NCBI RefSeq assembly: GCF_038002225.1
Contig: NZ_JBBOCA010000001.1
Location: 7,192,001-7,256,000 of the forward strand
Length of the DNA stretch: 64,000 nucleotides
Direction of reading: 5' to 3'
Source: Paenibacillus sp. FSL R7-0204
GTDB lineage: Bacteria > Bacillota > Bacilli > Paenibacillales > Paenibacillaceae
Part shown: in pieces, positions 8,918-57,300 of the stretch
Position numbering within the stretch: the stretch's first letter is position 1
How the letters are laid out: every line of letters begins with the position of its first letter
Translations under genes and position numbers: made by a program
Notes under the pieces: model-generated
What the model saw: only the letters and a program-made list of their open reading frames with translations
What the model was told of the DNA's origin: nothing
Database searches by the model: none

Positions 8918-9020
8918 CCATGTGCTCCGCGCCTGCTCCATGTGGTCGGTTTTTCGACTACATTCTCTCCACTTGCCTCCTGCGGGCCCCATGTGTTCGG
9001 TTCTCCGCACACATGGGGGT
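8918..9020. repeat. 51-bp tandem repeat array A (two units plus a partial one)
   Basis: ATGTGGTCGG at 8940 recurs as ATGTGTTCGG at 8991, exactly 51 bp apart; a weaker ATGTGCTCCG is at 8920. Unit 1 can fold ATGTGGTCG with CGACTACAT. Unit 2 can fold CCCATGTG with CACATGGG around a CGG/CCG inner stem. The cores match array B near 28.2 kb. Confidence 0.7.
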
Positions 9021-9036
9021 TGAGCCCTGGAAGGCA

Positions 9037-9072
9037 AACAAGCGGACCGGCGCATTGACCGGTCCGCTTGTT
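9037..9072. terminator. rho-independent terminator between convergent genes
   Basis: AACAAGCGGACCGG (9037-9050) pairs perfectly with CCGGTCCGCTTGTT (9059-9072). It sits between the DinB-like gene and the activase gene. Confidence 0.75.
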
Positions 9073-9084
9073 ATATTCATCATT

Positions 9085-12000
9085 CTACCCCTGACAGCCT
9101 ACACTGCCGGCCATGACTGGCACCAGCTGTGCCAGATCGTCCGGCGACGGCTGGGTACCGGCGGCGAGGCCGCTGGCAATCGACATCATCAGCTTGATCC
9201 GGTTGGCTTGGTTGACCACGCTGACTCCGGCATCATAATCAATGGCGACGATGTTCGCACCAGGATACAGATCCTTGAGCCCCTTAATCATCCCGCGCCC
9301 GGTAATGTGATTCGGCAGGCAGGCAAACGGCTGAATACAGGCAATATTGTTCACACCGTTATCCAATAGATCCATCATCTCCGCCGTCAGGAACCAGCCT
9401 TCACCCATCTGGTTGCCGACCGACACGAGGCGGCTTGCCTTCTCGGCCAGACCGTAGATATTCTCCCGGCCTTTGGATAGTCCCGCCTGCTCCAGTGCTA
9501 CCTTGACCGGCTTGCGGTAGATTTCGAGATAGGAGATCAGCATGGGATTGATATAGCCCAGCCGCTTGCTTTTGCCGAATTGCTCGGCCTTGTAGATCGG
9601 ATTGTAGACACAATAGAAAATGAAGTCCAGGAAATCAGGCATCACGGCCTCCCCGCCCTCGGCCTCGATCATGTCGATGATATGGTTATTCGCATCCGGA
9701 TGGAATTTGATTAGAATTTCCCCGACAATGCCCACCTTGGGCTTATCCGCCGGGATGACCGGCAGCCGCGAGAACCCGGCAACAATCTCACGGGTCAGCC
9801 GCTTATATTCGCGGAACGAGAAGTTTGACAGGCTGCCCTTACAGCGGCCCATTCCTTTGCGGAATAAGGCCTCTGCGCTTCCCGGCACCGCTTCATACGG
9901 TCTGAAGCGGTGCAGCAGACGCATCATCAGATCCCCGTAGCAGGCTGCGGCAATCAGGCGGTTCGCCAGCTTCAGGCTGATGCGGAAGCCCGGCTGGTTC
10001 TCCATCCCGGAGGCATTCAGGGAGATTACCGGGATCTGCCCCAGATCGGCATCCTTCAGCGCCTTGCGCAGCAGGGAGATGTAGTTGGTCGCCCGGCAGC
10101 CGCCGCCGGTCTGCGACATGATGACAGCGGTCCGGTCCGGGTCATAATCGCCGCTCTTCAGTGCCGACAGCATCTGCCCGATCGTTACAATCGCCGGATA
10201 ACAGGCGTCATTGTTGACGTACCGGAGGCCTTCCTCCGTCTCCTGCGGACCGGTCGATTCCAGAATTTTCAGCCGGTAGCCCGCATCCTGGAAGACACGT
10301 TCGAACAGCTCGAAATGAATCGGTGACATCTGCGGGGCAAGGATGGTATAGGTATCCTTCATTTCTTTGGTGAACGGCACATTGACTTGCGGCTTGTAGA
10401 GCAGCTGCGGCTTAACCTGGCCTCTCTCGCGCTCACGCATCGCGGCCTGGAGCGAACGCAGGCGAATCCGCGCGGCTCCAAGATTGCTGATTTCATCGAT
10501 TTTGATAAGCGTATAGACCTTGTTGTGACGCTCCATAATCTCCTGAACCGCATCGCAGGTAATCGCATCAATTCCGCAGCCAAAGGAGGTGAGCTGGACC
10601 AGCTCCAGATCACTTCTTCCCGCAGCCAGCCGGGCTGCACGATACATCCGCGCATGGTAGGTCCACTGGTTCACTACGCCAACATCCCCTTCGCTGCGGT
10701 CCAGATGGCAGATCGAATCCTCGGTCAGTACCGCAAGTCCCATCCCGGTAATCATATCGGCAATCCCGTGATTGATCTCAGGGTCGGCATGATACGGATG
10801 TCCGCAGAGCAGAATTCCCTTCGTGCCTGTCTCTGAGAGGAAGACCAGCGTCTCCTCGCCCTTGGTACGCACATCGTTCTTCGCCTGCTCCGCCTCCACC
10901 AGTCCCGCCTGGACAGCAGCCACAATCTCCTCCTTGGGCACCTCGGCGAAGGTTCGTGCCAGCACCCGGGTCAGCGCCGGAATATCGTCGAAAGTCAGGA
11001 AAGGGCTGACCAGCGGAACCCCCTGCTCCTTCAGGCCGTCCATATTATTGCGGATTACCTCGGGGTAGGAGGCAACCACCGGGCAGTTGAAGTGATTCTG
11101 CGCGGCATCATCCTCCTTCTTCTCATACACCACCGCCGGGTAAAAGATGAAGTCCACGCCCTGGCCGATCAGCTGCTGTACATGCCCGTGAGCCATTTTG
11201 GCCGGATAGCAGATGGATTCCGAAGGAATCGTATCCATTCCGCTCTCATACAGCTTCTTACTCGACTTGGGAGACAACACGGTACGGTAGCGCAGCGAGG
11301 TGAAAAAGGTATGCCAGAACGGGTAATTCTCGAACATATTCATTGTGCGCGGAAGTCCAACCGTCCCCCGGAGCGCTGCCACTTCAGGCAGGCCCTCGTA
11401 GGCGAAGAACCGCTCATATTTATATTGCATCAGATTCGGCAGCGTGTTCTTCTCTTTCTTGCCGCCTGCGCCGCGTTCACAGCGGTTCCCCGTCACATGG
11501 AAGCTTTTATCCGGGAACCGGCTGATAGTCAGCGCACAGTTGTTGGCACAGCGGCTGCAGCGGCCTGGAGCAACAGAATACTGGAAGCTCTCCAGCTCCT
11601 CCGGTCCGAGAATCGTGCTGATTCCTTCCGGGGCAGCCTGTTCTCTGGCAATCAGCGCACAGCCGTAAGCGCCCATCACACCGGCGATATCAGGTCTGAC
11701 TACCGTTCTTCCCGTCAGCAGCTCAAAAGCCCGCAGGACAGCCTCATTATAGAAGGTGCCGCCCTGAACAATGATATTCCGGCCCAGATCCTCGGGATTA
11801 CGGATCTTAATCACCTTTTGCAGCGCATTCTTCACCACGGAATAGGCAAGCCCCGCCGAGAGATCGGCAAGTGTCGCCCCCTCCTTCTGGACCTGCTTCA
11901 CCTTGGAATTCATGAACACGGTACAGCGCGAGCCGAGATTCACCGGCCCCTTCGATTCGAGCGCCGCAGCGGCGAATTCCTCTATCCCAAGCTCCAGTGC

Positions 12001-13383
12001 GGAAGCGAAGCTCTCCAGGAAGGAGCCGCAGCCCGCCGAGCAGGCTTCATTAAGCATCAGGCTGTCGATGGCTCCCCCGCGGATCTTGATGCACTTCATG
12101 TCCTGGCCGCCGATATCGAGGATGAAGTCGACCTCCGGCATGAACCGGGAGGCGGCCTTGTAATGGGCCACCGTCTCTACTTCTCCGCCATCCATCCGCA
12201 GCGCCGCCTTGACCAGACCCTCTCCATAACCGGTTGCGTAAGCTCCTGCAATATAGCAGCCGGAGGGCAGAATCCGGTAGAGATCCTTCAGTGCGTCCGT
12301 AACCGACTGCAGCGGATTGCCTCCATTGCTCCCGTAGAAGGTATGCAGAATCTCATCTGCCGCTCCGGTAACTACCAGCTTGGTCGTGGTAGAGCCGGCA
12401 TCAATGCCGAGATAGACCGGTCCCTGGTAAGCTGCCAGCACGGAGCGCGGTGCTGTAGCCTGACTGTGACGGAGTCTAAACTGCGCCAGATCATCCGGTG
12501 TTCCGAACAGCGGCGCCAGCTCTGCATCCTCCGCGCGGTCCTGCGAGAAGTCTACAGCCATGATCCGGGCAATCCAGCCGCTCAGCGGCAGGAATACGGG
12601 ATCTGACCCGGCAAGCGCCGAACCGATGGCGACGAAGTATTGCGAGTGCTCCGGGAACAGCACCTCCTCCTCCTTCAGTCCAAGCGTCTCCTTGAACCGG
12701 TCCCGCAGAGCGGACAGGAAGGTCAACGGTCCCCCGAGAAAAGCAACACGCCCACGGATCGGACGTCCGCAGGCCAAGCCGCTGATTGTCTGGTTCACGA
12801 TGCTCTGGAAGATCGAGGCCGCCACATCCTCGCGCCGCGCCCCTTCATTCAGCAGCGGCTGCACATCGCTCTTGGCAAATACCCCGCAGCGCGAAGCGAT
12901 GGGATAGATCCTTTCATGCTTCACCGCAAGCTCATTCAGCCCGGCAGGGTCCGTCTGCAGCAGAGAGGCCATCTGATCGATGAATGCCCCTGTACCGCCT
13001 GCACAGGCTGTGTTCATCCGCTGCTCAATGCCGCCGCTGAGATAGATGATTTTGGCATCCTCTCCGCCCAGCTCAATCGCGGTATCACATTCTGGAATCC
13101 GTCCGCTGATCGCCCTCGTGCAGGCAATGACCTCCTGGACAAACGGAATCTCCCCTAGCTTGGACAGGGATAACCCGGAGGAGCCGCTTACGGTGAGCGC
13201 TGCTTCACTGCCTGTGAATCTTTGCTGCACCTCTGACAGTAGGGTAACCGCCGCTTTTTTTATATCACTGAAATGACGCACATAATCCTGATATATAATG
13301 ATATCCCGTTCCATAACCACCAATTTGGCTGTAGTTGATCCGACGTCAAGCCCAATACGCAGTCTCTTCATGCCATCCCCCAT
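9085..13383 (-). CDS. acyl-CoA dehydratase activase, giant fused form (two BadF/BcrA ATPase modules, DUF2229, HgdB-like C-terminus)
   Basis: About 1432 residues. I prefer the ATG at 13383 (GGAG 6 nt upstream); the ATG at 13371 is equally plausible. Two ASKHA-fold ATPase modules of the 2-hydroxyacyl-CoA dehydratase activator type follow each other. The first opens LRIGLDVGSTTAKLVV with ACAGGTGAFIDQ and SRCGVFAKSD. The second has YLGIDAGSTTTKLVV, ACSAGCGSFLES and SRCTVFMNSK. Conserved Cys residues in these motifs would bind a bridging [4Fe-4S] cluster. A DUF2229 region follows (from about GLPRTMNMFENYPFW), then a long C-terminus related to dehydratase subunits. Classical activases drive ATP-dependent electron injection into a dehydratase. 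No separate dehydratase genes are adjacent, so the substrate is unknown. Confidence 0.9.
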   Translation of the reverse strand: MGDGMKRLRIGLDVGSTTAKLVVMERDIIIYQDYVRHFSDIKKAAVTLLSEVQQRFTGSEAALTVSGSSGLSLSKLGEIPFVQEVIACTRAISGRIPECDTAIELGGEDAKIIYLSGGIEQRMNTACAGGTGAFIDQMASLLQTDPAGLNELAVKHERIYPIASRCGVFAKSDVQPLLNEGARREDVAASIFQSIVNQTISGLACGRPIRGRVAFLGGPLTFLSALRDRFKETLGLKEEEVLFPEHSQYFVAIGSALAGSDPVFLPLSGWIARIMAVDFSQDRAEDAELAPLFGTPDDLAQFRLRHSQATAPRSVLAAYQGPVYLGIDAGSTTTKLVVTGAADEILHTFYGSNGGNPLQSVTDALKDLYRILPSGCYIAGAYATGYGEGLVKAALRMDGGEVETVAHYKAASRFMPEVDFILDIGGQDMKCIKIRGGAIDSLMLNEACSAGCGSFLESFASALELGIEEFAAAALESKGPVNLGSRCTVFMNSKVKQVQKEGATLADLSAGLAYSVVKNALQKVIKIRNPEDLGRNIIVQGGTFYNEAVLRAFELLTGRTVVRPDIAGVMGAYGCALIAREQAAPEGISTILGPEELESFQYSVAPGRCSRCANNCALTISRFPDKSFHVTGNRCERGAGGKKEKNTLPNLMQYKYERFFAYEGLPEVAALRGTVGLPRTMNMFENYPFWHTFFTSLRYRTVLSPKSSKKLYESGMDTIPSESICYPAKMAHGHVQQLIGQGVDFIFYPAVVYEKKEDDAAQNHFNCPVVASYPEVIRNNMDGLKEQGVPLVSPFLTFDDIPALTRVLARTFAEVPKEEIVAAVQAGLVEAEQAKNDVRTKGEETLVFLSETGTKGILLCGHPYHADPEINHGIADMITGMGLAVLTEDSICHLDRSEGDVGVVNQWTYHARMYRAARLAAGRSDLELVQLTSFGCGIDAITCDAVQEIMERHNKVYTLIKIDEISNLGAARIRLRSLQAAMRERERGQVKPQLLYKPQVNVPFTKEMKDTYTILAPQMSPIHFELFERVFQDAGYRLKILESTGPQETEEGLRYVNNDACYPAIVTIGQMLSALKSGDYDPDRTAVIMSQTGGGCRATNYISLLRKALKDADLGQIPVISLNASGMENQPGFRISLKLANRLIAAACYGDLMMRLLHRFRPYEAVPGSAEALFRKGMGRCKGSLSNFSFREYKRLTREIVAGFSRLPVIPADKPKVGIVGEILIKFHPDANNHIIDMIEAEGGEAVMPDFLDFIFYCVYNPIYKAEQFGKSKRLGYINPMLISYLEIYRKPVKVALEQAGLSKGRENIYGLAEKASRLVSVGNQMGEGWFLTAEMMDLLDNGVNNIACIQPFACLPNHITGRGMIKGLKDLYPGANIVAIDYDAGVSVVNQANRIKLMMSIASGLAAGTQPSPDDLAQLVPVMAGSVGCQG

Positions 13384-13491
13384 ACCTTGCTCCAAATTTG
13401 AAGTAATATGAGGCAACTATATCACGAGTAAGCCTGACTATAGCTGTTAGAAAAGTAACAGACAAATACAATTAATTACCAGCATACTTAA

Positions 13492-13953
13492 TTATTTCAC
13501 GATTTGTTCTAATGCGGCTTCCACATGGCCCTTCACTCTGACTTTTCGCCACTCCGCTCTCAGAATTCCTTCCTCATCAATCAGAAAAGTAGAGCGCACA
13601 ATCCCCATGAATTCCTTGCCGTAGAGCTTCTTAAGCTGCCATACCCCGAACAATTCGCTCACCCTATGCTCCTCATCGGATAATAACGGAAAGGGCAGGC
13701 TATTCTTCGCAATAAATTTGCTGTGTGAGGCCAGCGGATCGGCACTGATTCCAAGAACAACCGCCCCATTCGCGGCAATCGTATCGTGGGCATCGCGGAA
13801 ATCGCAGGCCTCCTGGGTACAGGCCGGGGTACTGTCCTTAGGATAGAAGTAGAGCAGCACCTTCCTGCCGCGGTAATCATTTAAGCTGATGTTGCCCCCT
13901 GTTGAGGCTGGGAGTGTGAAGTCCGGAACCTTGTCACCTACTGTGATATTCAT
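13492..13953 (-). CDS. bcp: thioredoxin-dependent thiol peroxidase (peroxiredoxin, Bcp/PrxQ)
   Basis: 153 residues, with AGGAG 10 nt before the ATG at 13953. The thioredoxin-like AhpC/TSA fold is clear, with DSTPACTQEACDF carrying peroxidatic Cys45 and resolving Cys50, the CxxxxC spacing of atypical 2-Cys PrxQ enzymes. It reduces hydroperoxides in the cytosol using thioredoxin. In Bacillus subtilis the bcp-like ygaF lies beside gsaB and perR. Here a GsaB-type aminotransferase lies two genes away, so part of that neighbourhood is kept, with an LCP gene inserted. Confidence 0.95.
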   Translation of the reverse strand: MNITVGDKVPDFTLPASTGGNISLNDYRGRKVLLYFYPKDSTPACTQEACDFRDAHDTIAANGAVVLGISADPLASHSKFIAKNSLPFPLLSDEEHRVSELFGVWQLKKLYGKEFMGIVRSTFLIDEEGILRAEWRKVRVKGHVEAALEQIVK

Positions 13954-13994
13954 TTATTATTCACTCCTCTTAATGTGGTTGTTGATTTCTGAAA

Positions 13995-14023
13995 TTGCGT
14001 GTCTTCCCAAAAGAAATTATAAT
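13995..14023 (+). promoter_or_regulatory. sigma-A promoter for the LCP gene
   Basis: TTGCGT at 13995-14000, a 17-bp spacer and a consensus TATAAT at 14018-14023 lie 33 bp before the LCP start. Confidence 0.65.
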
Positions 14024-14055
14024 GTAGAGAATGTGAACTGGAAAGGACGAACGAA

Positions 14056-15114
14056 ATGCCACCAAGAAAGAACCGGCACGCCAAAGCCGGCAAGTCAAAG
14101 AAGAAAACGCTGCTCTGGACTCTGGCAATCATACTCCTTTTAATCATCGGAGGTCTGGTTTACTATTTCACTGCAATTTACAATCAGCTCGATAACCTCC
14201 ACAAGACAGGTGAAGATTCTCCGTTCGCCAATGTTCCCACAGCCTCGGCGGAGGCGGTTAAGCCCCCTGTATGGGAAGGCACAGAGCCGGTCAATATCCT
14301 GCTCATGGGCGTGGATGCGCGCGGGGTGAAGAAGGGCGAGGTGCCGCGTTCCGACACTATGCTGGTCGCCTCACTTGATCCGGTGAAGAAGAAATTCTAT
14401 GTCTTTTCCATTCTTCGTGACACTTATGTTGACATCCCTGACCACGGTTCACAGCGGATCAATGCCGCCATTACCTATGGACCCAACACGGCGATGCAGA
14501 CGGTCAGCGACCTGCTCGGTATCCCGATTCAATATTATGTCTATACCGATTTCCAGGGCTTCATGAAGCTGGTGGATGCTGTAGGCGGTGTGGATTATGA
14601 GGTCGAGAAGGATATGCGTTATACCACCAAGGCGGACGGGCCTGAGTTCGATATCGATCTCAAGAAGGGCTTCCAGCACCTGGATGGCAAAATGGCTCTG
14701 CAGTATGTGCGCTTCCGTCATGACGCGACCTCCGATTTCACCCGGACTGAGCGCCAGCGCGGCTTCCTTAAGGCTGTAGCAGATAAGGTGATCAGCACCA
14801 CCTCCATAATCAAGCTGCCGACCATTCTAGGTGAGGTTACACCTTATATTGACACGAATCTTGATATTAGCGACATGTGGAAGCTCGGCGCTGTAGGCTA
14901 TGACAGCTCTATGGGCGGCAGCGCGCAGATTCCGCCGATGAATCTGATCCGGGAGAAGACCCTCAAGGACGGCTCCCAGGTGATCGGGTTCAGCAGCGAG
15001 CGGGCGCTGAAGCAGTTCGTAGAGGATACGCTCACTGCACCCGAACCATCGCCAACTCCTGGAGCAGAGGCCTCACCGGGCAGCAGCCCTTCCGCATCAC
15101 CGGGAACAAAGTAA
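14056..15114 (+). CDS. LytR-CpsA-Psr (LCP) family cell-wall glycopolymer ligase
   Basis: 352 residues, with GGAAAGGA upstream of the ATG at 14056. It has a short basic cytoplasmic N-terminus, one membrane helix (about 19-40), and then an extracellular LCP domain. The hallmarks are NILLMGVDARG, RSDTMLVASLDP, FSILRDTYVDIP, RINAAITYG and the YVRFRHDATSDFTRTERQR block with its Arg/Asp residues that bind the pyrophosphate of a polyprenyl-linked substrate. The last ~35 residues are Pro/Ser/Ala-rich. Such enzymes attach teichoic acid or other anionic polymers to peptidoglycan. No terminator is obvious before hemL, 105 bp downstream. Confidence 0.95.
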   Translation: MPPRKNRHAKAGKSKKKTLLWTLAIILLLIIGGLVYYFTAIYNQLDNLHKTGEDSPFANVPTASAEAVKPPVWEGTEPVNILLMGVDARGVKKGEVPRSDTMLVASLDPVKKKFYVFSILRDTYVDIPDHGSQRINAAITYGPNTAMQTVSDLLGIPIQYYVYTDFQGFMKLVDAVGGVDYEVEKDMRYTTKADGPEFDIDLKKGFQHLDGKMALQYVRFRHDATSDFTRTERQRGFLKAVADKVISTTSIIKLPTILGEVTPYIDTNLDISDMWKLGAVGYDSSMGGSAQIPPMNLIREKTLKDGSQVIGFSSERALKQFVEDTLTAPEPSPTPGAEASPGSSPSASPGTK

Positions 15115-15219
15115 CATCCAATATAACCATGCTTGGCACACGGGGCGGGCGGACAGCGGGAATCAGACGCGGTTCGCCCTTTCCCATGAGCGCAAGCCAA
15201 GAAGAAAGGAACATTAGCT

Positions 15220-16536
15220 ATGAACCGCAGCACATCAGAACAGTTATACGAGGAAGCTCTCCAGCATATTGTCGGAGGCGTGAACAGCCCCTCCCGCTCC
15301 TTCAAGGCCGTGGGCGGAGGCACCCCTGTCTTCATGAAACGCGCGGGAGGCTCACGCTTTTGGGATGAGGACGGCAATGAATATATTGATTATCTGGCCG
15401 CCTATGGCCCGATCATTACCGGACATGCCCACCCGCATATCACCGCCGCTATTACTGAGGCCGCGCAGAACGGACTGCTCTACGGAACGCCAACCCGGCT
15501 TGAGATCAAGCTGGCTAAGATGCTGAAGGAAGCTATTCCTTCGATGGATAAGGTACGCTTCGTCAACTCCGGTACAGAAGCCGTCATGACGACCATCCGC
15601 GTCGCCCGCGCCTACACCAAGCGCAGCAAAATCATCAAATTCGCCGGCTGCTATCATGGCCACTCTGATCTTGTGCTTGTAGCCGCAGGTTCAGGTCCAT
15701 CGACGCTGGGCATCCCTGACAGCGCAGGCGTTCCGGCCAGTATCGCCCAAGAGGTCATCACCGTTCCCTTCAATGATCTGGATGCCCTGCGTGGAGCATT
15801 AGAGAAATGGGGCCAGGATGTGGCTGCCGTGATGGTCGAGCCGATTGTCGGCAACTTCGGTATGGTTATGCCGGAGCCAGGCTTCCTGGAAGGCTTATGC
15901 AAACTGACGCACGAGAACGGCTCCCTGGTTATCTATGATGAAGTCATTACCGCCTTCCGTTTCCACTATGGCTCCACACAGACCTATGCCGGTCTGGCGA
16001 ATCATGAGGAGATTATTCCCGATCTGACGGCCCTTGGCAAAATCATCGGCGGCGGGCTGCCGATCGGCGCTTACGGCGGCCGCAAGCATGTCATGGAGCA
16101 GGTCGCTCCGCTCGGTCCTGCTTATCAGGCCGGCACGATGGCCGGTAACCCCGCCTCGATCTCGGCAGGGATCGCCTGCCTGGAGGTGCTTAGCGCGGAA
16201 GGCGTCTATGACGAGATGGAGCGGCTGGCAATCCGCCTGACCGAAGGACTTCAGGCATCCGCGGGCCGTCACGGCATTCCGCTGACCATCAACCGGATTC
16301 GCGGCGCCTTCTCCACACATTTTTGCAGCCATCCCATTACGAATTATGAGGAAGCGCAGGATACTGATGGTGAAATGTTCGCCAGCTTCTTCCGGCATAT
16401 GCTGAGCCGGGGCATCAACCTGGCCCCGTCCAAATATGAGGCGTGGTTCCTGACCACAGCCCACACGGATGCCGACATCGACCTCACCCTAGAAGCAGCA
16501 GAGGCTTCGTTCGCGGCTATGGCTACGGAGAAGTAA
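15220..16536 (+). CDS. gsaB: glutamate-1-semialdehyde 2,1-aminomutase, GsaB-type paralogue
   Basis: 438 residues, class-III PLP aminotransferase fold, with GAAAGGA upstream of the [25 protein letters not shown], the cofactor Asp240 in [10 protein letters not shown] and the Schiff-base Lys274 in [15 protein letters not shown] are all present. The reaction converts glutamate-1-semialdehyde to 5-aminolevulinate for tetrapyrroles. It stands alone, away from any hemAXCDB genes, and close to bcp, as B. subtilis gsaB does. I therefore name it as that paralogue; the motif DEVITAFR differs slightly from the DEVMTGFR of canonical HemL. Confidence 0.85.
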
Positions 16537-16554
16537 TCGCCCAACTATAAGAAT

Positions 16555-27985: not shown

Positions 27986-28039
27986 AGAGTTAGCCGGCTG
28001 ACAACACTCCCGGAACTTTCCGCAGGAACAAATACCTGC

Positions 28040-28390
28040 AGCATCCCCATTGTGATCGGTTTTCCGACCAATTCCCGCCCCCGCACCTCCGCCGCACTGA
28101 ATGTAGTCGGTTTTCCGACCTTATCCGGCCCGCACGTCCCTGCCTCTCCGAATGTAGTCGGTTTTTCGACCTTATCCGGCCCACACGCCTCTGCCACACC
28201 GAATGTGGTCGGTTTTCCGACCTTATCCGGCCCGCACGTCCCTGCCTCACCGAATGTAGTCGGTTTTCTGACCTTATCCGGCCCGCACGTCCCTGCCTCA
28301 CCGAATGTAGTCGGTTTTCTGACCTTATCCGGCCCGCACTCCCCCGCCGCACCGAATGTAGTCGGTTTTTCGACCTTATCCGGCCCAGAT
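28040..28390. repeat. 51-bp tandem repeat array B (seven units)
   Basis: The core GTAGTCGG-type motif begins at 28052, 28103, 28154, 28205, 28256, 28307 and 28358, exactly 51 bp apart. Each unit has a GTCGG-TTTT-CCGAC hairpin; variants TTCGAC and CTGAC keep pairing by shift or G-U wobble. Between cores is CTTATCCGGCCCGCACG followed by a more variable segment. The outer units are the most divergent. A 17-residue peptide repeat is open in one minus-strand frame, but I see no ribosome site or family for it. Confidence 0.95.
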
Positions 28391-28494
28391 GACCACGCGC
28401 TGTCCATGGGTTCGGTGAAATGAACGAAGTCATTCCTATTACTGAATAAGAATATAGTCATCCCGCCGATGCTCCAAGACACTTTTCCCCAACT

Positions 28495-28514
28495 TTATGC
28501 ACAACTTATACACA
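28495..28514 (+). promoter_or_regulatory. pair of perfect DnaA boxes
   Basis: TTATGCACA (28495-28503) and TTATACACA (28506-28514), both exact matches to TTATNCACA, lie in the same orientation 11 bp apart. They are in the gap between array B and the LuxR gene terminator. No dnaA or dnaN gene is nearby, so this is not oriC as seen here. Confidence 0.6.
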
Positions 28515-28543
28515 TCGGACGAAAATCATAATTTCCTAATCAA

Positions 28544-28576
28544 CAAAAAATCCCCTTTCGCTGGAAAGGGGATTTC
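28544..28576. terminator. rho-independent terminator after the LuxR-type gene
   Basis: AAATCCCCTTTC (28548-28559) pairs with GAAAGGGGATTT (28564-28575) around GCTG. T-rich sequence lies on the minus-strand exit. Confidence 0.85.
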
Positions 28577-34425: not shown

Positions 34426-34770
34426 TACGGTGTCTTCGGTTTTTCGCACATTCTGATGGATTTGTCCCTTTCATAGCGGCTTTCTGTGTATCTATATCTA
34501 TGGTCAATTCTGAGGGTATTCACTCTCACTAACCGCTTGTTTGAAGCAGCATTGTTGCACTTTTTGCAGGATTTTTCTAGAAATATGACTGGTTGCGGTG
34601 TATTGTTGCATCATTTGCAGGAATTTAGGTGCTTATAGCAAGTTAGCGCTGCATTTGTTGCATTTCGTGCAGGATTTCCGCATAGGGCGCTTCTGTCGGG
34701 CGGCATTGTTGCACTTCTTGCAGGATTTTTCTAAATTTATTAGAAGCTGTGGCGTGTTGCCCCACGCATC
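34426..34770. repeat. 51-bp period array C (four to five units) plus a solitary core
   Basis: GTTGCA cores start at 34554, 34605, 34657 and 34708 (steps of 51, 52, 51), with a weak fifth near 34756. Each of the four conserves TGCA-N5-TGCAGG with different loops: CTTTT, TCATT, TTTCG, CTTCT. The sequence between cores is largely dissimilar. Near 34430 a lone CTTCGGTTTTTCGCACATT resembles the core of arrays A and B. This 400-bp gap holds no gene. Confidence 0.75.
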
Positions 34771-34781: not shown

Positions 34782-34820
34782 TAAGCCCGCCGCCACTGTC
34801 GAAGTGGCAGGCGGGCTTTT
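34782..34820. terminator. terminator after folE
   Basis: AAGCCCGCCGCCACT pairs perfectly with AGTGGC-AGGCGGGCTT (one bulge) and is followed by TTTT. It serves the leftward folE gene and possibly sodF. Confidence 0.85.
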
Positions 34821-48806: not shown

Positions 48807-48810
48807 CGCT

Positions 48811-49674: not shown

Positions 49675-49679
49675 CCCGC

Positions 49680-50645
49680 TTATTCACCTACCCTCTTCAG
49701 CAGCTTTTGGACAATCAGATTGCTGCCCAGCATCATCACGAACAGCACGGTGGCAATCGCCGAGGCATAGCCCATCTCGAAGCGGATCGTACCGTAATCC
49801 ACCAGGTGGGTTACGATTGTATGCGCCCCGTACTGCACACTCGGGAAGCCAGCCAGCGCCATAGCCACATCGGCAACTGCCAGCGACGCAGTGATCTGAA
49901 TGACCGCGCCGAACATCAGCTGCGGGCGCATGGAAGGCAGCGTAATGAACCACAGCTCCTGCCAGCGGTTTTTGACACCATCCACCGCCCCTGCTTCATA
50001 CAGCGTCTTGTCAACGGTCTGCAGTCCGGCGATGAAGGCCAGGAAGCTGGTCCCCAGACTTAGCCAGAGCTGTACCAGCATGATGATCCCCAGCATATAC
50101 TTGGGGTCCTGCAGCCATTGGATCGGCTCATAAATTACGCCAAGCTGCATGAGAAGTCCGTTGATGATCCCGTAGGAGTCACTGGAGAAGATAATCTGCC
50201 AGATGAAGAATACATTCCCCGAGATGGACGGCGCAAAAAAGATCAGGGTCATAAACGCCCGCAGCTTGGGATTCAGCTCATTGATCAGCCAGGCAAACAG
50301 AAAACAGGCGATATAGCTGACCGGTCCCGTAACCACTGAGAAAATCAGCGTATTTTTGACCCCGATCAGGAATACATCATCGTTCCAGAGCAGCTTGGAA
50401 TAATTCTCCCAGCCGATCCAGCGCGGCATCTCCAGCATGTTGAAGTGCGTGAAGCTGAAGATGATCGAAATCACTACCGGTAGTACGGTAAACAACAGAA
50501 ACAGCACCATGTATGGCGCCAGCAGTATATACAGGTGCTTATCCCGCCGCACATCCTTGCCGAACAATGCCCAGTAATTACGCAGCCCGGAAGGGGACAG
50601 CCGGGGCTGAATCAAGGGTTCGGCCGTATTTTTCACTTTCTGCAC
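49680..50645 (-). CDS. carbohydrate ABC transporter permease, MalF-like (first pair)
   Basis: 321 residues, six predicted membrane helices, EAA loop DKTLYEAGAVDGVKNRWQELWFITLPSMRPQ. The first helix (LYILLAPYMVLFLLFTVLPVVISIIFSF) is typical of CUT1 permeases. It is separated from the large binding protein by 12 bp. Confidence 0.94.
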   Translation of the reverse strand: MQKVKNTAEPLIQPRLSPSGLRNYWALFGKDVRRDKHLYILLAPYMVLFLLFTVLPVVISIIFSFTHFNMLEMPRWIGWENYSKLLWNDDVFLIGVKNTLIFSVVTGPVSYIACFLFAWLINELNPKLRAFMTLIFFAPSISGNVFFIWQIIFSSDSYGIINGLLMQLGVIYEPIQWLQDPKYMLGIIMLVQLWLSLGTSFLAFIAGLQTVDKTLYEAGAVDGVKNRWQELWFITLPSMRPQLMFGAVIQITASLAVADVAMALAGFPSVQYGAHTIVTHLVDYGTIRFEMGYASAIATVLFVMMLGSNLIVQKLLKRVGE

Positions 50646-50657
50646 AAGAGTCCCTCC

Positions 50658-53567
50658 CTATTCCCTTCGTTTCAAATCGAACTCTGCTCTCTTCTGATCA
50701 ATCTCATAGTCGATCTCCTGCACATAATCGTACAGAGCATCGGCGGTGTTCGTTCCATTGTTGATGACCTCACGCAGAGCATTGTCCAGATGGCGGCCTG
50801 TGAAGTAACCGCCCGGCACCTCAGGCACACCCTGCACCCATTGCCACTGCTCCTCCAGATGGCGGTAATCGCTTGTCGGCCACGGCAGCTCCTTAAGCGC
50901 TTCAACGTTGGCGGTCGGATACCGCGCAGCCGCGCCCATGAGGCCCTCCATCTCCCGGCCGAAGCGGACCTGCGAATCCTTGTCTACCCACCACTTCATG
51001 AATTCCCAGGCGGCATCCTTGTTCTTAGCCTGCTTCAGCATCAGTGCGGCGGTGCCCCCGCTGGCAACATCCCTGCGGATACTCCCGTCCGGCTGCTTCG
51101 TCCCCGGAACCGGAATGAATTCCCATAGCCCCTTAATCTCCGGCGCAGATACGCTCAGATAGTTATAGAAGGTATAGTCCTGAATGCCGACCGGCATCTC
51201 GCCGGTGCGGAACCGCATCGGGAAGTCGAAGATCAGCGGCAGCTTGTAGCTGGTATAGAAATTGGTCCAGTTTTTGAAGGCAGCCAGCCCGGTCTCTGTA
51301 TCGAGTCCGCTCTTCGCTCCGTTATTCAGATAAAATGATCCGCCCATCTGATAGAGCAGCATGGCATAGGCGCGGTTGACCTCCAGCACCGGCACACCTG
51401 TCGTCTGCGCGAGCGGCAGCGCCATATCCATCCGGTGCTTCTGCAGCACCGGAATCATTGCATATACCTCATCCCACGTCTGCGGCGGCTCAAGATTCAG
51501 CTCCTGCAGAATATCCTTGCGGTAGAAGAGCATGTTGAAGATCTGCTGCTCCGGCAGGGCAAAGACCTGATTCTCGAACCGGTACGGCACGAGCGCACTG
51601 TCTCTGAACTGCTTCACCACTTCCTCATAGCCGGGGTACTTCGACAGATCCTCTGCCGCTTTGCGCATCCCGAAGTTCACCGGCATATCATTGCCGACCT
51701 GCATCGCCACATCCGGGCCTTCCCCGGCCAGCGAGGCGCGCAGCAGCACATTCGGACTCACCAGCTTCAGATTGACAGAGGTGCCGGTGAGCGGGGTAAA
51801 TGTATCATCAATCATTGCCTTCAGCACCTGCGCCTGGTCGCGGCCGGTTCCGATCCATACATCAATGGTCTCGCCGTTCTCCGTGGTATTGCCAATCGTG
51901 TTGTAATCCTCGAAGAACGAATGGGTGAAGGACGACACCTCATGCACAAGCTTCCTGAACCCGGAAGCATTCGCCTTCGGCAGCTTCACATCCGGCGAAG
52001 ACAGCAGCAGATAATCAATCTCCAGCGGCTGCTCCCGTACCTCCAGAATCCAGGAGCCTACGCTGCCGACATTGATTTTGAACTGCGACAGCCGCTTCTG
52101 CACCGTTTCCGGCTTGTCGGCCATGTCCGCCAGCTGATAGGCAGTTTTATTCAAGGTTGCGGTTTTATCACTCTTTTCCCCTGTAAGCCGGACCAGCTCT
52201 TCCGATACGCCATATAGAATCTGGCTCTGCTCACGGAAGACCGCCGTCATATCCGGGATTTGCTCCTCCAGCCTGTAATCGCGGTACGGATCTGGCACAT
52301 TGCCTGTAATCATCAGGATTTTCCGGTACATCGCATTAATGTCCAGCACACTGGCCTCCACCTGGCGCAAGAGCGGTGCAATGGCCCCGAGGCTGACCTC
52401 CAGCTGCAATTCGTGTTTTCCTTTGCTTAAATAGAATAAATAAGGCTCCTCATCGTTCCCCAGCCGGTTCATCTGCCAATCCGAATCATAGTAGAACGGA
52501 ATCTGCAGCATTTCCCGGAACGGAATCTCTCCGTCAATCCGCAGGGAGCGTGTGGAATATATCCCTCTTAACAGCTCCTGCCGGCCTTTGATGGTGATGT
52601 TGTACAGACCGTCATCCGGCGCTTCTACTTCCCAGGTGATCCATTGTCCCGGTACCCGCCAGTTGTTGCCGCCAATCGTGTTCATTCTGATCTTGGACAC
52701 ATCATACGGCTCTGTTGAAGGGCTTGAGCGGTCTGTGATCGGATACAAGGTCGGGGAGGATTTGTAAACAGCGTCTTCCCCCTGCACCTTAACCGTGTGG
52801 CCGCTGGTGGGTTTGTACCCCTTAGCTTCGTAGCTCTGCTTCACCTCTGCGTAGGCAGCGGGTGCATCGTAGCTGTGCAGCTTAATATAGTCGATGACCA
52901 TCGGCTCTCTGCTGGACACCATCGTCAAGGTGTGCGTTCCGGCCGACAGATAGAATTGGTACGGCTCCTCATAGTAGCCTTCCGTATCTCTCAGCAGGGT
53001 CTCCTGCCAGGCCGGGGCCTCAATCTGGCGCGGCCGGAGATCATTGTCCCGGTTATCCTGCTGGATCTCCGGATTCTCATTGACCCAGATCCGCCCGAAG
53101 GACAGATTGCGGGCGCTGGTGAACGGCAGCTTGCCGTCGATCAGCAGCTCACGTTCAATCGCCGAGCTTTTGCCCTTCACCGGATAATACCGGACAGAGA
53201 TGTGGTATAGCCCGGACTTCGGCACATCCAGCTGCCACCCGATGGAGCCGCTCTCCTCCGTTCTGACGTATCTTCCCGTCTCCCCGCCAAGCTCCGTTAG
53301 CACCTCCGGACTCATCCCCTCGGCCCCGGTATAATCGGCCCCCTTCAGCATAATTTCTTCGCGGGGCTGCTCCTCGCCCTCGTATTGCTGCAGATAATGC
53401 TCATAGCTGCCCTCAGGCAGCAGCTGCACCTCCTGCCCGTTTCCCGTCACACCTTGGGCCTGGGCAGCAGGCAGCTCTGCACTTGCCGCAGGCAGCGCCA
53501 TCATGGAGATCAGCATGACGGTTACAAGTGTCCGGTTCATCTTCCGCCGGGATAATGATCTTCTCAC
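50658..53567 (-). CDS. large extracellular solute-binding protein with carbohydrate-binding-like N-terminal modules
   Basis: 969 residues from a GTG start (GAGGAGGG upstream). The signal peptide covers about 10-35 (RTLVTVMLISMMALPAASA). Two beta-sandwich modules of the CBM35-like type appear at about 65-240 (ETGRYVRTEESGSIGWQLDVPKSGLYHISVRYYP, AGTHTLTMVSSREPMVIDYIKL) and 250-400 (VPGQWITWEVEAPDDGLYNITIKG). A helical linker follows. The last ~400 residues are a type-I solute-binding fold (TIDVWIGTGRDQAQVLKAMIDDTF, ASLAGEGPDVAMQVGNDMP, WDEVYAMIPVLQKHRMDMALP, DAAWEFMKWWVDKD). No lipobox Cys. Binding a long or branched glycan and handing it to importer pair 1 is the likely role. Confidence 0.85.
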   Translation of the reverse strand: MRRSLSRRKMNRTLVTVMLISMMALPAASAELPAAQAQGVTGNGQEVQLLPEGSYEHYLQQYEGEEQPREEIMLKGADYTGAEGMSPEVLTELGGETGRYVRTEESGSIGWQLDVPKSGLYHISVRYYPVKGKSSAIERELLIDGKLPFTSARNLSFGRIWVNENPEIQQDNRDNDLRPRQIEAPAWQETLLRDTEGYYEEPYQFYLSAGTHTLTMVSSREPMVIDYIKLHSYDAPAAYAEVKQSYEAKGYKPTSGHTVKVQGEDAVYKSSPTLYPITDRSSPSTEPYDVSKIRMNTIGGNNWRVPGQWITWEVEAPDDGLYNITIKGRQELLRGIYSTRSLRIDGEIPFREMLQIPFYYDSDWQMNRLGNDEEPYLFYLSKGKHELQLEVSLGAIAPLLRQVEASVLDINAMYRKILMITGNVPDPYRDYRLEEQIPDMTAVFREQSQILYGVSEELVRLTGEKSDKTATLNKTAYQLADMADKPETVQKRLSQFKINVGSVGSWILEVREQPLEIDYLLLSSPDVKLPKANASGFRKLVHEVSSFTHSFFEDYNTIGNTTENGETIDVWIGTGRDQAQVLKAMIDDTFTPLTGTSVNLKLVSPNVLLRASLAGEGPDVAMQVGNDMPVNFGMRKAAEDLSKYPGYEEVVKQFRDSALVPYRFENQVFALPEQQIFNMLFYRKDILQELNLEPPQTWDEVYAMIPVLQKHRMDMALPLAQTTGVPVLEVNRAYAMLLYQMGGSFYLNNGAKSGLDTETGLAAFKNWTNFYTSYKLPLIFDFPMRFRTGEMPVGIQDYTFYNYLSVSAPEIKGLWEFIPVPGTKQPDGSIRRDVASGGTAALMLKQAKNKDAAWEFMKWWVDKDSQVRFGREMEGLMGAAARYPTANVEALKELPWPTSDYRHLEEQWQWVQGVPEVPGGYFTGRHLDNALREVINNGTNTADALYDYVQEIDYEIDQKRAEFDLKRRE

Positions 53568-53626
53568 TCGGGTTCCCTCCTCTAGCAGACTTGCATATTA
53601 AGAGTGATACAGCTGCACACGACTAT

Positions 53627-53706
53627 GCCGCCCTATAAGGGCGGCTGCCGATTCTGCGGACTAACACAGCAGGTATTGCGCAGAACAAGCATGAATTACG
53701 CTTGTT
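53627..53706 (-). other. two intercistronic stem-loops between the binding-protein genes
   Basis: GCCGCCC (53627-53633) pairs with GGGCGGC (53639-53645), and AACAAGC (53684-53690) pairs with GCTTGTT (53700-53706). They lie after the SBP stop codon with no T-tract. Such hairpins often protect the first cistron's mRNA, allowing more binding protein than permease. Confidence 0.6.
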
Positions 53707-53723
53707 ATGAGCTGTTTTGTTAC

Positions 53724-55139
53724 CTATTTCTTCTCTTTATCCTGCTCACCGCTCAGTACCTTTTTGGCTGCGGCCTGCGCCGTTCCAATCACTTGGGCCA
53801 CCCCGGTGGACGGTGTAATCTCGCCCTTCAGGAATTTCTCAGTCACCTTATCCAGCTGATCCTTGACGCCAAGACCGCCGTAACGTCCGCCGAAGACCCG
53901 CTCCACTTTACCTTCATCATTCATCGCATTGGCGATAGAGGCTTCATCCGGCAAAATATTCTCCATCGACAATCTGCGGTTCTCCTGCCAGCTGTCGAAC
54001 GGCTGCAGATCCTCCCAGATCTTCACGATGGTATCCGCATCCTTGACCCCTTTGGGAATGGCATAGGCTGCTGTCTGTCCCAGCGGATCGTAGTACTTAT
54101 CGGCCTGCGGGCCTTTTGGAATATAGACATATCCCCATTCATCCTTCATCTTGCCGAGAATACGCCCTTCAATTTCCCAGAGACCGCCCGGATACATAGC
54201 GACAGTTCCTTCTCCAAAATACTTAGCCGGGTCTTCCCAGTCATTGCCCTCGTTAGGCTTGAACACCTTATCCTGGGTGTAGAGCTTATGAAGGAAATTA
54301 AGCGCTTCCATTGATGCCGGTGAATCAAAGACCGCCTTCTGAGTAGCTTCGTCGTAGATTTTGCCGCCGTTGCTGGCGATCAGCAGCTCCGAGATCACAT
54401 AATGGGCTCCGGCCAGACCGTACTGGTCCATCTTCCCGTCCCCGTTCTTATCAATCGTCAGCTTCTTCGCCGCATCAAGCATCGTATTCCAGTTCCAGTT
54501 ATCTTCATCCATCAGCTGCTGAGGGTCCTTCAGGCCCGCTTCCTTGAAAATACGTTTGTTGTAGAACACGCCGCTGTCGTTCGGGCTGTACCAGCTCTCC
54601 AAGCCATAGACCTTGTCGCCGCCGAAGCGCATGGAATCAATCACGCTCTGATCGATGAGTGAATCCTTCAGATAATCATCAAGCGGTGTAAGGAAGCCGC
54701 CATGCATCAGCCCCCAGATGAAGCCATCCGGCAGCCGGACAATCTCGGCAAACGGATCGCTTGCCATAACGGAAGAGGACAGCTTCTCGGCGGTGGACCA
54801 ATACTCTGTATTCAGGTATTTAATCTTGACGTTGTATTTCTCTTCCACCGCTTTGATCCGCTCGCGGGCAAGCTCATCTGCCTCTGAATCCCCGACAGGA
54901 GTGGCATCCCACCAATGAGAGATGCGGATCTCCCGCCCGTTCAGATTAGCAACCGGCTCCTTCGGCGCTTCCGTTGCCGCTGCTGGCGTTTCACTGGCTG
55001 CCGGAGCCTGAGTCGCCTCCGCCGCCGGTGTTGTTGCCGGTGCAGACGCGTTATTCCCTCCGCTGCAACCGGTTACAAGTGTAACTACGGCTGTCAGCAG
55101 CATGAACCACGCCGAGCTTTTCTTCTTCAACTGTTTCAC
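53724..55139 (-). CDS. extracellular solute-binding lipoprotein, CUT1 sugar importer
   Basis: 471 residues from a GTG start at 55139 (GGGGAG about 11 nt upstream). The lipoprotein signal ends LVTGC (Cys25) and is followed by an Ala/Thr/Pro-rich linker. A family 1 binding fold is plain: NLNGREIRISHWWDATPVGDSEADEL, ASDPFAEIVRLPD, YTVFNKR-like GVFYNKRIFKEAGLKDPQ, TMLDAAKKLTIDKNGDGKMDQYGLAG, and FGEGTVAMYPGGLWE. First structural gene of the operon. It could serve either permease pair. Confidence 0.94.
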   Translation of the reverse strand: MKQLKKKSSAWFMLLTAVVTLVTGCSGGNNASAPATTPAAEATQAPAASETPAAATEAPKEPVANLNGREIRISHWWDATPVGDSEADELARERIKAVEEKYNVKIKYLNTEYWSTAEKLSSSVMASDPFAEIVRLPDGFIWGLMHGGFLTPLDDYLKDSLIDQSVIDSMRFGGDKVYGLESWYSPNDSGVFYNKRIFKEAGLKDPQQLMDEDNWNWNTMLDAAKKLTIDKNGDGKMDQYGLAGAHYVISELLIASNGGKIYDEATQKAVFDSPASMEALNFLHKLYTQDKVFKPNEGNDWEDPAKYFGEGTVAMYPGGLWEIEGRILGKMKDEWGYVYIPKGPQADKYYDPLGQTAAYAIPKGVKDADTIVKIWEDLQPFDSWQENRRLSMENILPDEASIANAMNDEGKVERVFGGRYGGLGVKDQLDKVTEKFLKGEITPSTGVAQVIGTAQAAAKKVLSGEQDKEKK

Positions 55140-55170
55140 TGTTCGCCACGCTCCCCTAATTTCAGTGATG

Positions 55171-55512
55171 TTAAACTAATCCAAGCCTGTATGCGTCCGT
55201 ACACCGCTCCTTCCCAATGTCATATTTATATAGTGGCGTATGCCAGCATATAAGCCCTTTAGATAAGCCTGGAAATGATAAAAAGAAACTTGGAAATAAA
55301 CGAGCTTGGATACGGGCGGTGCCGTTCTCGCGAGAAGGATAAGGATTATTGTACGGCCCTTGCCGTCCCGTTAAGAGCGATACCGCTTCAGTGGGCGCAT
55401 CAGGAGCAACTGTGAACGGTGCCTCTCCCAAGGGAAGTATCCGGATGACTGGTGGGTTTCGGGTGCGAATTCTTGTACTTTTCAAATTATCAGTAAATTC
55501 ACAAAACCACAT
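55171..55512 (-). other. operon leader with palindrome and a short open frame
   Basis: The ~425 nt between the operator and the first binding-protein gene contain an open frame of 113 codons from the ATG at 55512, whose product I do not recognise and whose ribosome site is poor. They also contain the perfect palindrome TTCTCGCGAGAA (55325-55336) and a decayed copy of the dispersed repeat in inverted orientation (55311-55355: GGTGCCGTTCTCGCGAGAA, then GGATAAGGATTATTGT). No tested riboswitch pattern is recognisable. Confidence 0.35.
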
Positions 55513-55562
55513 TGCCCCATATGTACCGCCAGAGTAACCGCTTACTCAAATCCAAAAAAATA

Positions 55563-55619
55563 ATGAAATGGGTTTCATGAAATCCATTTCATTATAACTT
55601 CTGTTTATCCTCTGGTCAA
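55563..55619 (-). promoter_or_regulatory. operon promoter with two overlapping LacI-type operators
   Basis: On the minus strand TTGACC (55619-55614), a 17-bp spacer and consensus TATAAT (55596-55591). Immediately downstream lie two 16-bp palindromes of the form ATGAAA-N4-TTTCAT: ATGAAATCCATTTCAT (55577-55592) and ATGAAATGGGTTTCAT (55563-55578), overlapping by 2 bp. This is where the LacI protein encoded 220 bp upstream would bind and block initiation. Confidence 0.88.
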
Positions 55620-55808
55620 TCCTGCTTTACACATATTTCATGCTTCAATCCAAAACCTTTCCAGAATACAGGCCCCCTCGTGCTGACGCACTCCACATAC
55701 GCCTGGAAAGTTCTTGACCGCCCCTGGATGAACATGCTTGAAGACGCGCGTGGCAGACTGGTCTGGTAAGCAGCTTCCGGCGAGTGTTGTTGGGAGCTAT
55801 TGTGTGAG

Positions 55809-56846
55809 CTATTCTGTGAGATTTCTCGGGCGGCCCGTGCTGTCCCGTACCACCAGCTTGGGCTGGAGCACCGTCCGTTTTTTGGGATTTCTGCCGCTGA
55901 TCAGCTCATGAAGCATCTCTACAGACAGCTCCCCCAGCTGGTTGGTGTTCTGCGACACCGTGGTCAGCTCCGGAATAACCGCTCTGGACAAGGGCGAATC
56001 ATCGAACCCGACGATCGATAGATCCTCCGGTATCTTCAGACCATGCTGGGTGGCAGACTTCAACGCCCCGATGGCTGTAAAATCATTCACACACAGTACT
56101 GCTGTCGGCCGGTCCTCCTGCTCCAGCATCCGGTCCATCAGTGCCCGCCCGCCTTCGATCGAGAAGTCGTGGAACATGACCCAATCCTTGCGCAGCGTAA
56201 GCCCCTGTTCTTTCAGCTTCATCCTCACAGACTTCAGCTTCACTTGGGTTGTGGACGTCTCCTCCATCCCCCCGAGGAACCCGATTCTCCGGTGCCCCAG
56301 GTCCAGCAGATGCTGGGTGGCCAGTGCGGCCCCTTCCTCTTCATCGGTATAAATGCGGTGCAGGCCGCTTCGGGGCAGATTGCCGTTGACCAGCACGATC
56401 GGCACATGCTTCGACAGCTCCACGACCTCCTGGGACAACGCCGGCGGACAATGATTCATGTTAATTCTGCCGCCCAGGAAAATTATCCCATCCACTCTTT
56501 TCTCCCGAAGAATGCTAAGGTACTCCGACTCACGGCTATGCTCCCCCGCCGTATCGCAGAGGAAGAACGTATAATGCTTCTCTCTGGCCACATTCTCGGC
56601 TCCCCAGAAGACCTCCGGGAAAAAGGGGTTGGTGATGTCAGGCAAAATCATGGCGATAGTGCCAGTCTCCTTCTTGAGCAGACTGCGGGCAAGCGCGTTC
56701 GGCTGAAACTGGTGCTTCTCAATTACAGCCATGATGATCTCCCGGGTGCTCTCCTTGACCGGAGCAGTATTGTTGAGGACACGGGAGACTGTGGCTACGG
56801 ACACCTGGGCCTCCTTGGCGATATCATATATGGTAATCGTCTTCAT
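55809..56846 (-). CDS. LacI family transcriptional repressor of the glycan operon
   Basis: 345 residues, with AAGGAGGT before the ATG. N-terminal HTH TIYDIAKEAQVSVATVSRVLNNTAPVKESTR with the hinge helix NALARSLLKKET. The C-terminal sugar-binding core (60-335) has IAMILPDITNPFFPEVFWGAE, VDGIIFLGGR, TDEEEGAALATQHLLDLGHRRIGFLGG, AVLCVNDFTAIGALKSA and VGFDDSPLSRAVIPELTTV. It is placed just upstream of the operator and operon, so it most likely responds to a sugar released by the encoded enzymes. No terminator separates it clearly from the operon. Confidence 0.95.
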   Translation of the reverse strand: MKTITIYDIAKEAQVSVATVSRVLNNTAPVKESTREIIMAVIEKHQFQPNALARSLLKKETGTIAMILPDITNPFFPEVFWGAENVAREKHYTFFLCDTAGEHSRESEYLSILREKRVDGIIFLGGRINMNHCPPALSQEVVELSKHVPIVLVNGNLPRSGLHRIYTDEEEGAALATQHLLDLGHRRIGFLGGMEETSTTQVKLKSVRMKLKEQGLTLRKDWVMFHDFSIEGGRALMDRMLEQEDRPTAVLCVNDFTAIGALKSATQHGLKIPEDLSIVGFDDSPLSRAVIPELTTVSQNTNQLGELSVEMLHELISGRNPKKRTVLQPKLVVRDSTGRPRNLTE

Positions 56847-56998
56847 CCTTTACCTCCTTGGTCTAGCGTTCGTGGCTTATGACAACTTACATCCGGGGCG
56901 GATGGGTGCGGGGGTGGGGATTGGGGTAGAGCGGGAGTTGTGGCAGAGGGCAGAGCGCGGTTAGGGTTGGAGGGACGCGAGGAGATGGGCTGTTATTT

Positions 56999-57300
56999 AG
57001 TGGCCTTTTATTCGTACCAGTTGCTAACTGCTACTCATTTCGCCCAGCCGCCCGCTTTTAGCTAATTCAGGGGTAGTTATGCTCCTCATTTCGCTTAACC
57101 GCTCTCTTCCGGCACATTCAAAGGGATTCATCCCTTTAATTTCACCAGGCGGGCCCACTTCCGGCATATTTAATGGGATTTATCCCTCTGATTTCACCGG
57201 GCGGCTCACTTTCGGCACATTTAATGGGATTTATCCCTCTGATTTCACCGGGCGGCCCACTTCCGGTACTTTTAATGGGTTTTTGCAGCCTAATTCCGGC
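56999..57300. repeat. 51-bp period array D (five to six units)
   Basis: Anchors GGG start at 57071, 57123, 57175, 57226 and 57277 (steps 52, 52, 51, 51); an earlier unit is seen by GCTACTCATTTCGC at 57030 versus GCTCCTCATTTCGC at 57081. Units share GGGATTTATCCC (a palindrome), GATTTCACCGGGCGG, and CACTTCCGGC...TTTAAT. A 17-residue peptide repeat is open in one plus-strand frame, with no gene-like start. The remaining part of this 743-bp gap (57300-57590) has two weakly similar blocks near 57405 and 57508. Confidence 0.85.

Follow-up and report, generated by a model that had tools for sequence, protein, structure and literature searches.

Why should intergenic arrays of mostly dissimilar sequence repeat with the same step of 51 bp? 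The question is raised by a 64,000-nucleotide stretch of Paenibacillus sp. FSL R7-0204 (hereafter the window, G000:C1:7192001-7256000; the source genome G000 comprises 7.71 Mb in three contigs), which carries arrays of small palindromes near 8.95, 28, 34.6 and 57 kb. The initial annotation had described these as four mostly unrelated arrays obeying a common length rule, and had suggested a common amplification machinery or a chromosome-organising protein as its cause. The period holds at all four; however, the 8.95 and 28 kb arrays belong to one unit family (F1), so that the window contains three kinds of array and not four. Tandem Repeats Finder (TRF) reports a 51 bp period at 28056-28386 (6.5 copies) and at 57106-57283 (3.5 copies). 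The 34.6 kb array consists of four palindromes of the type TTGCA-N5-TGCAGG (family F2) with spacings of 51, 52 and 51 bp, and the 8.95 kb locus has just two palindromes, 51.0 bp apart. As had been stated, the list of open reading frames places every array downstream of one gene or more. In what follows, L-numbers designate sampled loci or stretches, G-numbers the genomes compared and F1-F8 the unit families; all counts were made without phylogenetic correction.

The most direct answer is given by family F2, which was compared over 27 distinct arrays from this genome and its relatives (L117 and L149 having been left out beforehand). The palindromes are 51 or 52 bp apart in 60 of 63 intervals, the others being 34, 53 and 74 bp; 52 bp occurs often enough in F2 that the idea of a 17-codon unit is not needed. 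Of 36 pairs of successive linkers, on the other hand, 35 show less than 45% identity, and both members measure 27 or 28 nt in 31 of these 35. The rule extends beyond the four-unit homologous set that makes up most of the collection: in the five arrays of at least three units outside it (L039, L043, L047, L049 and L150, one strand each), 13 of 14 spacings are 51 or 52 bp and the remaining one is 53 bp. Within 160 bp, same-orientation neighbours are separated by 51 or 52 bp in 62 of 71 pairs (the rest by 34, 53, 74, 103, 104, 105, 155 twice and 160 bp), and opposite-orientation neighbours in seven of eight pairs (104 bp in the other), bearing in mind that the orientation call is soft for near-symmetric palindrome cores. 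As far as can be read from sequence, the F2 spacing is constant despite differing linker sequence and palindrome orientation, a behaviour that would fit the proposed chromosome-organising protein. Since the linkers are unrelated and the spacing is kept, also outside the main set, slippage alone is not a sufficient explanation. Even among linkers of equal length in the four-unit set, the mean number of differing positions is 7.3 of 27, 8.1 of 28 and 7.8 of 27 for the three linkers. F2 linker length is likely, with moderate support, to be under selection.

The 51 bp step is also found elsewhere in the genome and in relatives. The exact F1 and F2 patterns match 39 and 48 genome sites, respectively, and a relaxed F1 pattern matches 253; the reversed controls match none in all three cases, which excludes chance. 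The genome was sampled in 80 systematic 20 kb stretches (1.6 Mb), to which the window was added. Among the noncoding TRF loci of period 25-200 in the 1.6 Mb sample, 51 bp occurs nine times, 52 bp once and 27, 40, 45 and 60 bp once each, so the excess that had been proposed as a test is present in this sample; several real 51 bp arrays were moreover classed as coding on account of open frames that cross them. A profile search of the 80 stretches and the window (counted without L117, which overlaps the window) gave same-strand spacings of 51 bp (67), 52 bp (9) and 50 bp (1) together with 12 others, some of which reflect offsets between family models or units that were skipped. When the sample and window of G000, the sample of the congener G031 and 20 loci of ten relatives are combined and the range 49-53 bp alone is kept, 41 arrays have periods of 51 bp (32), 52 bp (7), 50 bp (1) and 49 bp (1). 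G031 has no exact F1 site and shows the same 51 bp period with the palindromes AATCAAAGGTATTTTTACCTTTGATT and AACAACGGCATTTCTGCCGTTGTT, besides one 50 bp and one 49 bp array; the repeat of G070 is an exception, with 55 and 42 bp by hand count. Different periods in relatives, which would have spoken against a shared rule, are the exception: apart from the values just given for G031 and G070, the periods are mostly 51 or 52 bp. Together with the excess in the genome sample, this upholds a length rule common to unrelated sequences. In named records, the 20-base F1 pattern occurs in 23 stretches, 21 of them in P. silagei, P. piscarius and P. tepidiphilus; two unrelated metagenome-assembled genomes account for one each.

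The units themselves are diverse. The F1 unit is AATGTRRTCGGTTTTTCGAYTACATT followed by a linker of about 25 nt, and F5 (ATGTATGCTGTTTTTCACATACAT) is its relative by eye. F3 (AGAGGGATTTATCCCTCT) and F4 (GGTGCACTATTGCACC) have their linker in common, and one array changes from F4 to F3 in register. Clustering of 26 arrays at 62% circular identity (null 99.9th percentile 55%) yields eight clusters, with the G031 units falling with F3/F4; single-linkage clustering unites F3, F4, F7 and F8 and keeps F1, F2 and F3 units apart. There are at least three unit superfamilies with a common period of about 51 bp, in two species. These data do not demonstrate the common amplification machinery that had been envisaged. 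A further family, F6 (AAGTGGAAAAAGGGTAACTAATTT), is found in relatives at L285, L286, L289, L291, L306 and L307; a hand count in L286 puts its pairs at 51 bp, with both orientations inside one element.

Some F1, F2 and F5 arrays prove, on sequence grounds, to be parts of one modular element: a 5' hairpin module, from zero to n units, a 3' module and an intrinsic terminator at the end. The 3' module (20 bases, up to three mismatches) has 21 copies in the genome, compared with none for the reversed control; judged by eye, the element that it closes carries an F1 array in eight cases, F2 units in four and F5 units in two, the rest having no units or remnants. A 21-base form (up to two mismatches) is present in 23 of 100 Paenibacillus genomes, with one match in the reversed control; some of the single matches may be due to chance. 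The 75 nt before the module contain DnaA-box-like 9-mers at 25 of 50 distinct loci (11 of 21 in this genome; L298 duplicates L267 and was left out of the locus counts). There are two or more at 10 of the 50 and three at 6, all on one strand, whereas a control stretch contains such 9-mers in 0 of 51; of the 16 spacings between them, 15 are of 11 or 12 bp. Directly 3' of the module, an inverted repeat is seen by eye in 21 of 21 copies from this genome (at L280 it is part of another dispersed repeat) and a run of at least four A in 17 of 21; the strict terminator rule, requiring both, is satisfied by 12 of 21 own copies and 25 of 50 distinct loci, compared with 57 of 20000 random positions. The sequence flanking the element is conserved on the terminator side only. 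The dispersed repeat mentioned, a separate hairpin (GGAAACGG..CCGTCC TTTTAA GGACGG..CCGTTTC), lies near terminators and array elements at the 28 kb site of G115, at L280 and at L019:1335-1480. At L284 and L305 (both G070) the 3' module follows another repeat, which at L284 is the one of 55 and 42 bp.

The 28 kb locus of the window displays the whole layout on the plus strand. It opens with the 5' module, GAACAAAT and a small hairpin (28026-28047), at a point where G114 and G101 lack the element, and continues with an F1 array of seven 51 bp units (28048-28381) and a degenerate terminal unit that remains in register, 52 bp on (28406-28433). Two 9-mers resembling DnaA boxes in sequence, TTATGCACA and TTATACACA, follow 11 bp apart (28495-28514), and then the 3' module AAATCATAATTTCCTAATCA (28523-28542), the sole copy in the window. 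On the minus strand, the predicted intrinsic terminator of a 739-amino-acid gene occupies 28545-28573, and the outer edge of its T-tract is the end of the F1 element. Open frames at 28052-28423 and 27990-28433 cross this array; the divisibility of 51 by three is probably the sole reason. The remaining arrays also lie on the plus strand: an F1 palindrome at 8940-8963 (centre 8951.5, from the palindrome measurement and the F1 pattern) with a diverged second one of F1 type at 8989-9016 (centre 9002.5); the F2 array at 34551-34735, with palindromes at 34553, 34604, 34656 and 34707 and unrelated linkers; and an F4-type palindrome at 57064-57091 that opens the F4-to-F3 array, whose 51 bp F3 units occupy 57106-57283. 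Behind the F2 array, a hairpin that looks like a terminator in sequence belongs to the opposing gene (folE by eye; 34783-34820, minus strand).

The orientation of these elements mostly follows replication. All 21 3' modules do so, the 11 located left of 3.6 Mb being without exception on the minus strand and the 10 located right of 5.1 Mb on the plus strand, as do 29 of 30 array clusters in the sample, of which 26 have a 3' neighbour gene facing them. The 16 clusters between convergent genes, a setting in which the genes cannot decide the orientation, all follow replication; orientation is thus set mostly by the replication fork and not by the neighbouring genes. The GC skew of the stretches flips at 0.12-0.21 and 3.72-3.82 Mb, as does the polarity of the arrays. 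Exact-pattern F1 loci comply in 19 of 19 cases, and 94 of the first 100 of the 253 relaxed F1 sites do. For G070, G031, G028 and G034, whose origins were not mapped, the 3' modules listed show a similar strand switch. The initial annotation was right about the spacing, and overlooked the modular element, its adjacency to terminators and this polarity.

At orthologous sites, comparison of close species indicates that presence turns over while the period is constant. The 28 kb site is empty in G114 and G101, has a short hairpin in G115 and no array in G112, G086 and G095, holds F2 arrays in G088 and G087 and, in G113, a longer insert that includes an F1 array, and carries the F1 element in G000 (G092 could not be anchored here, nor G095 and G092 at 57 kb). 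When filled G000 is compared with empty G101 and G114, duplications of at least 4 bp are absent from this one site. The 34.6 kb site has F2, F5, F1 or nothing, depending on the relative. At 57 kb, F3/F4 arrays of differing length occur in seven genomes (this one and six close relatives) and none in G112 and G086; the comparison of copy number between relatives, which had been advised, reveals variation between orthologous arrays.

These are small intergenic elements spread through Paenibacillus, which we read as BOX-like and as probably mobile in the past. The explanation that we prefer, and to which we give an even chance, is that of formerly mobile modular elements whose spacing is selected for a protein lattice on one face of the DNA and whose spread is coupled to the replication fork. 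The palindromes would be sites for one or more dimeric DNA-binding proteins assembling as this lattice, and selection would hold the spacing near five helical turns; the lattice may serve the maintenance of the element itself or its fork-coupled movement. The number of units would shift by ordinary repeat slippage or unequal exchange, and the spreading step would be carried out at the fork by an enzyme. A dimeric protein on double-stranded DNA is favoured because the spacing ignores both linker and orientation and because the F2 pair of the window folds as RNA no better than shuffled sequences; fork-coupled insertion is suggested by the polarity and by the position at the edge of terminators.

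Several observations weigh against this explanation. Most F2 arrays form the one four-unit homologous set, so that the 63 spacings are not independent. Simple helical phasing would also allow 41 or 62 bp, and neither is seen among the F2 spacings. The three linkers of the four-unit set, represented by 14, 15 and 17 distinct sequences (one doubtful match at L043 having been dropped from the second), have their modal lengths of 27, 28 and 27 nt in 11, 14 and 15; five of the others are off by one base and one contains a duplication that brings it to 50 nt. Length changes in F2 linkers are rare and small, but real. The ratio of indels to substitutions in pairwise comparisons is 0.168 in F2 arrays (210 pairs, with non-homologous arrays mixed in) compared with 0.113 and 0.099 in the flanks, i.e. 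it is not lower. The palindrome sequence differs from family to family, and no recognizable 3' module (up to three mismatches) was found at the 8.95, 34.6 and 57 kb arrays of the window. Six of the first 100 relaxed F1 sites are oriented opposite to replication, all of them at the loci of 1.085 and 1.827 Mb, and only 25 of 31 exact-pattern F2 loci follow it, even with the locus at 3.795 Mb, inside the skew-flip interval, counted as following. Finally, six of the 23 genomes with the module pattern, including the single-contig G112 and the 90-contig draft G117, have no match to Y1 transposases.

This last point bears equally on a possible, if rather doubtful, alternative: that these are non-autonomous single-stranded-DNA elements of the IS200/IS605 kind (palindrome-associated transposable elements, PATE) or of the repetitive extragenic palindrome (REP) kind. 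A Y1 (HUH) enzyme cutting at a fixed distance from hairpins would then act as ruler, and the orientation would result from insertion into the lagging-strand template. The polarity of the clusters and 3' modules, the absence of a duplication at the single filled/empty comparison and the flank conserved on the terminator side alone would all be expected, and orientation in the IS200/IS605 family recapitulates replication, according to excerpts of PMC5371812. The genome has ten Y1 matches, some of them pieces of one gene; PF01797 matches 17 of the 23 genomes with the module pattern and 39 of the 77 without (some of the single pattern matches may be chance and some of the genomes are drafts). Yet the ends of the element (up to five mismatches) were not found in the ten 3 kb Y1 loci, save for the F1 element that neighbours the IS605 of L061 and a weak 5' match in L068, and by inspection the ends of the insertion sequence (IS) elements that were read look unlike those of the array elements. 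Furthermore, a polar insertion ruler does not account for oppositely oriented palindromes at 51-52 bp. Excerpts of PMC5371812 and PMC7290912 lend an IS200/IS605-like route some appeal, but given the six genomes that lack a Y1 match we do not claim it. As a source, the IS605 neighbour or a REP-associated transposase (RAYT) system was rejected: the IS605 at L061 looks coincidental.

It is distinctly unlikely that the arrays are ordinary minisatellites, produced by independent slippage duplication with the 51 bp inherited from one ancestral unit. Units are near-identical within F1 and F3 arrays, copy number varies freely between species and single linkage joins four of the families, so that slippage could account for copy number in F1 and F3; it is contradicted by F2, where unrelated linkers within an array are combined with equal spacing, and F1, F2 and F3 units do not fall into one cluster. 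We consider it more unlikely still that the arrays are transcribed and act as RNA hairpins, as a sponge or as an aid to processing or termination. The 8.95 kb pair does fold strongly (z -6.2 against shuffles), and G.T outnumbers A.C in the stems of 56 F1 units (94 versus 26). However, the two-unit pairs at 34.6 kb (z -0.25) and 57 kb (z -0.06) fold like shuffled sequences and the 28 kb F1 pair only slightly better (z -1.4, with 17 of 200 shuffles folding as well). The wobble excess is weak over 41 arrays (169 versus 120, from array consensuses only; for F3/F4, unit picking took in F1 units and unrelated sequence, and the stem comparison was limited to consensuses). There is no Rfam match in the window or at the arrays of six other loci, and the element sits beyond the terminator. 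An unlikely, broader variant of the protein-lattice explanation would be a replication-oriented, chromosome-wide lattice, its palindromes at a 51-52 bp pitch recognized by shape or by a set of related proteins and not by a single sequence, which with the DnaA-box-like sites might help to organize or time fork passage while loci turn over and pitch and polarity are kept.

Comparison with known systems helps to place the element. Clusters of DnaA boxes are known at datA and in B. subtilis; the 9-mers found here resemble them, in sequence only, by their 11-12 bp spacing in intergenic DNA, and differ in being carried by a dispersed element. VNTR/MIRU minisatellites (variable-number tandem repeats/mycobacterial interspersed repetitive units) have tandem units of around 50 bp and variable copy number. 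Their similarity between neighbouring units is found in F1 and F3 and not in F2, where the distance repeats and the linker does not. The pneumococcal BOX element (boxA - n x boxB - boxC) is described in excerpts of PMC3049150 as modular and intergenic, with hairpins, overrepresented between convergent genes, patchy among relatives, bounded by inverted repeats at its termini and by target duplications, with 60.8% on the leading strand. Elements carrying the 3' module share this A - Bn - C arrangement with variable n, a likeness by layout. In contrast to BOX as described there, their ends show no inverted repeats by inspection, there was no duplication at the one site tested, orientation is far stronger, they end at terminators and their internal unit is interchangeable at fixed spacing. 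PATE derived from IS200/IS605 are, in excerpts of PMC5371812 and PMC7290912, short, with hairpins near their ends and replication-oriented; the present elements are likewise short, hairpin-bearing and oriented with the lagging-strand template (cf. the exact F2 loci above), whereas their ends are not matched at resident Y1 loci and ruler-spaced arrays are not described for PATE in those excerpts. A limited search of the open-access PMC literature found no description of these repeats.

Other candidate origins were rejected. They include a plasmid source for the F1 element of the window and a phage source for its F2 array, which has no match in a phage collection. A CRISPR (clustered regularly interspaced short palindromic repeat) array is contradicted by the main-set F2 linkers, whose order is kept where they recur across loci and species, in addition to the lack of phage matches for the F2 array of the window. 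A group II (IIC) intron was rejected for want of a maturase reverse transcriptase: the single RVT_1 match in the genome, in a 505-amino-acid open frame at C1:276549-276977 (L312), looks by eye like a defence-type enzyme.

Tandem repeats are usually alike in sequence; that F2 mainly keeps a distance points, in a way that can be tested, to a physical ruler on bacterial DNA, and the protein behind the spacing, if found, would be a new factor of the nucleoid or of transposition. Their strong polarity makes the elements natural markers of fork direction. On the practical side, as 51 is a multiple of three, open frames cross the arrays, which may be mis-annotated as genes. The sampled stretches hold further repeats: about 30 GTAG tetranucleotides directly before an F4/F3 array (L113:14940-15060, about C1:5,734,950), a degenerate octanucleotide repeat of GGACGAAT type (L127:19090-19240, about C1:3,649,100) and a 66 bp repeat resembling a CRISPR array in appearance (L115:8790-8954, about C1:6,488,800). 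A cobalamin riboswitch (Rfam RF00174) is located at L113:13660-13853.

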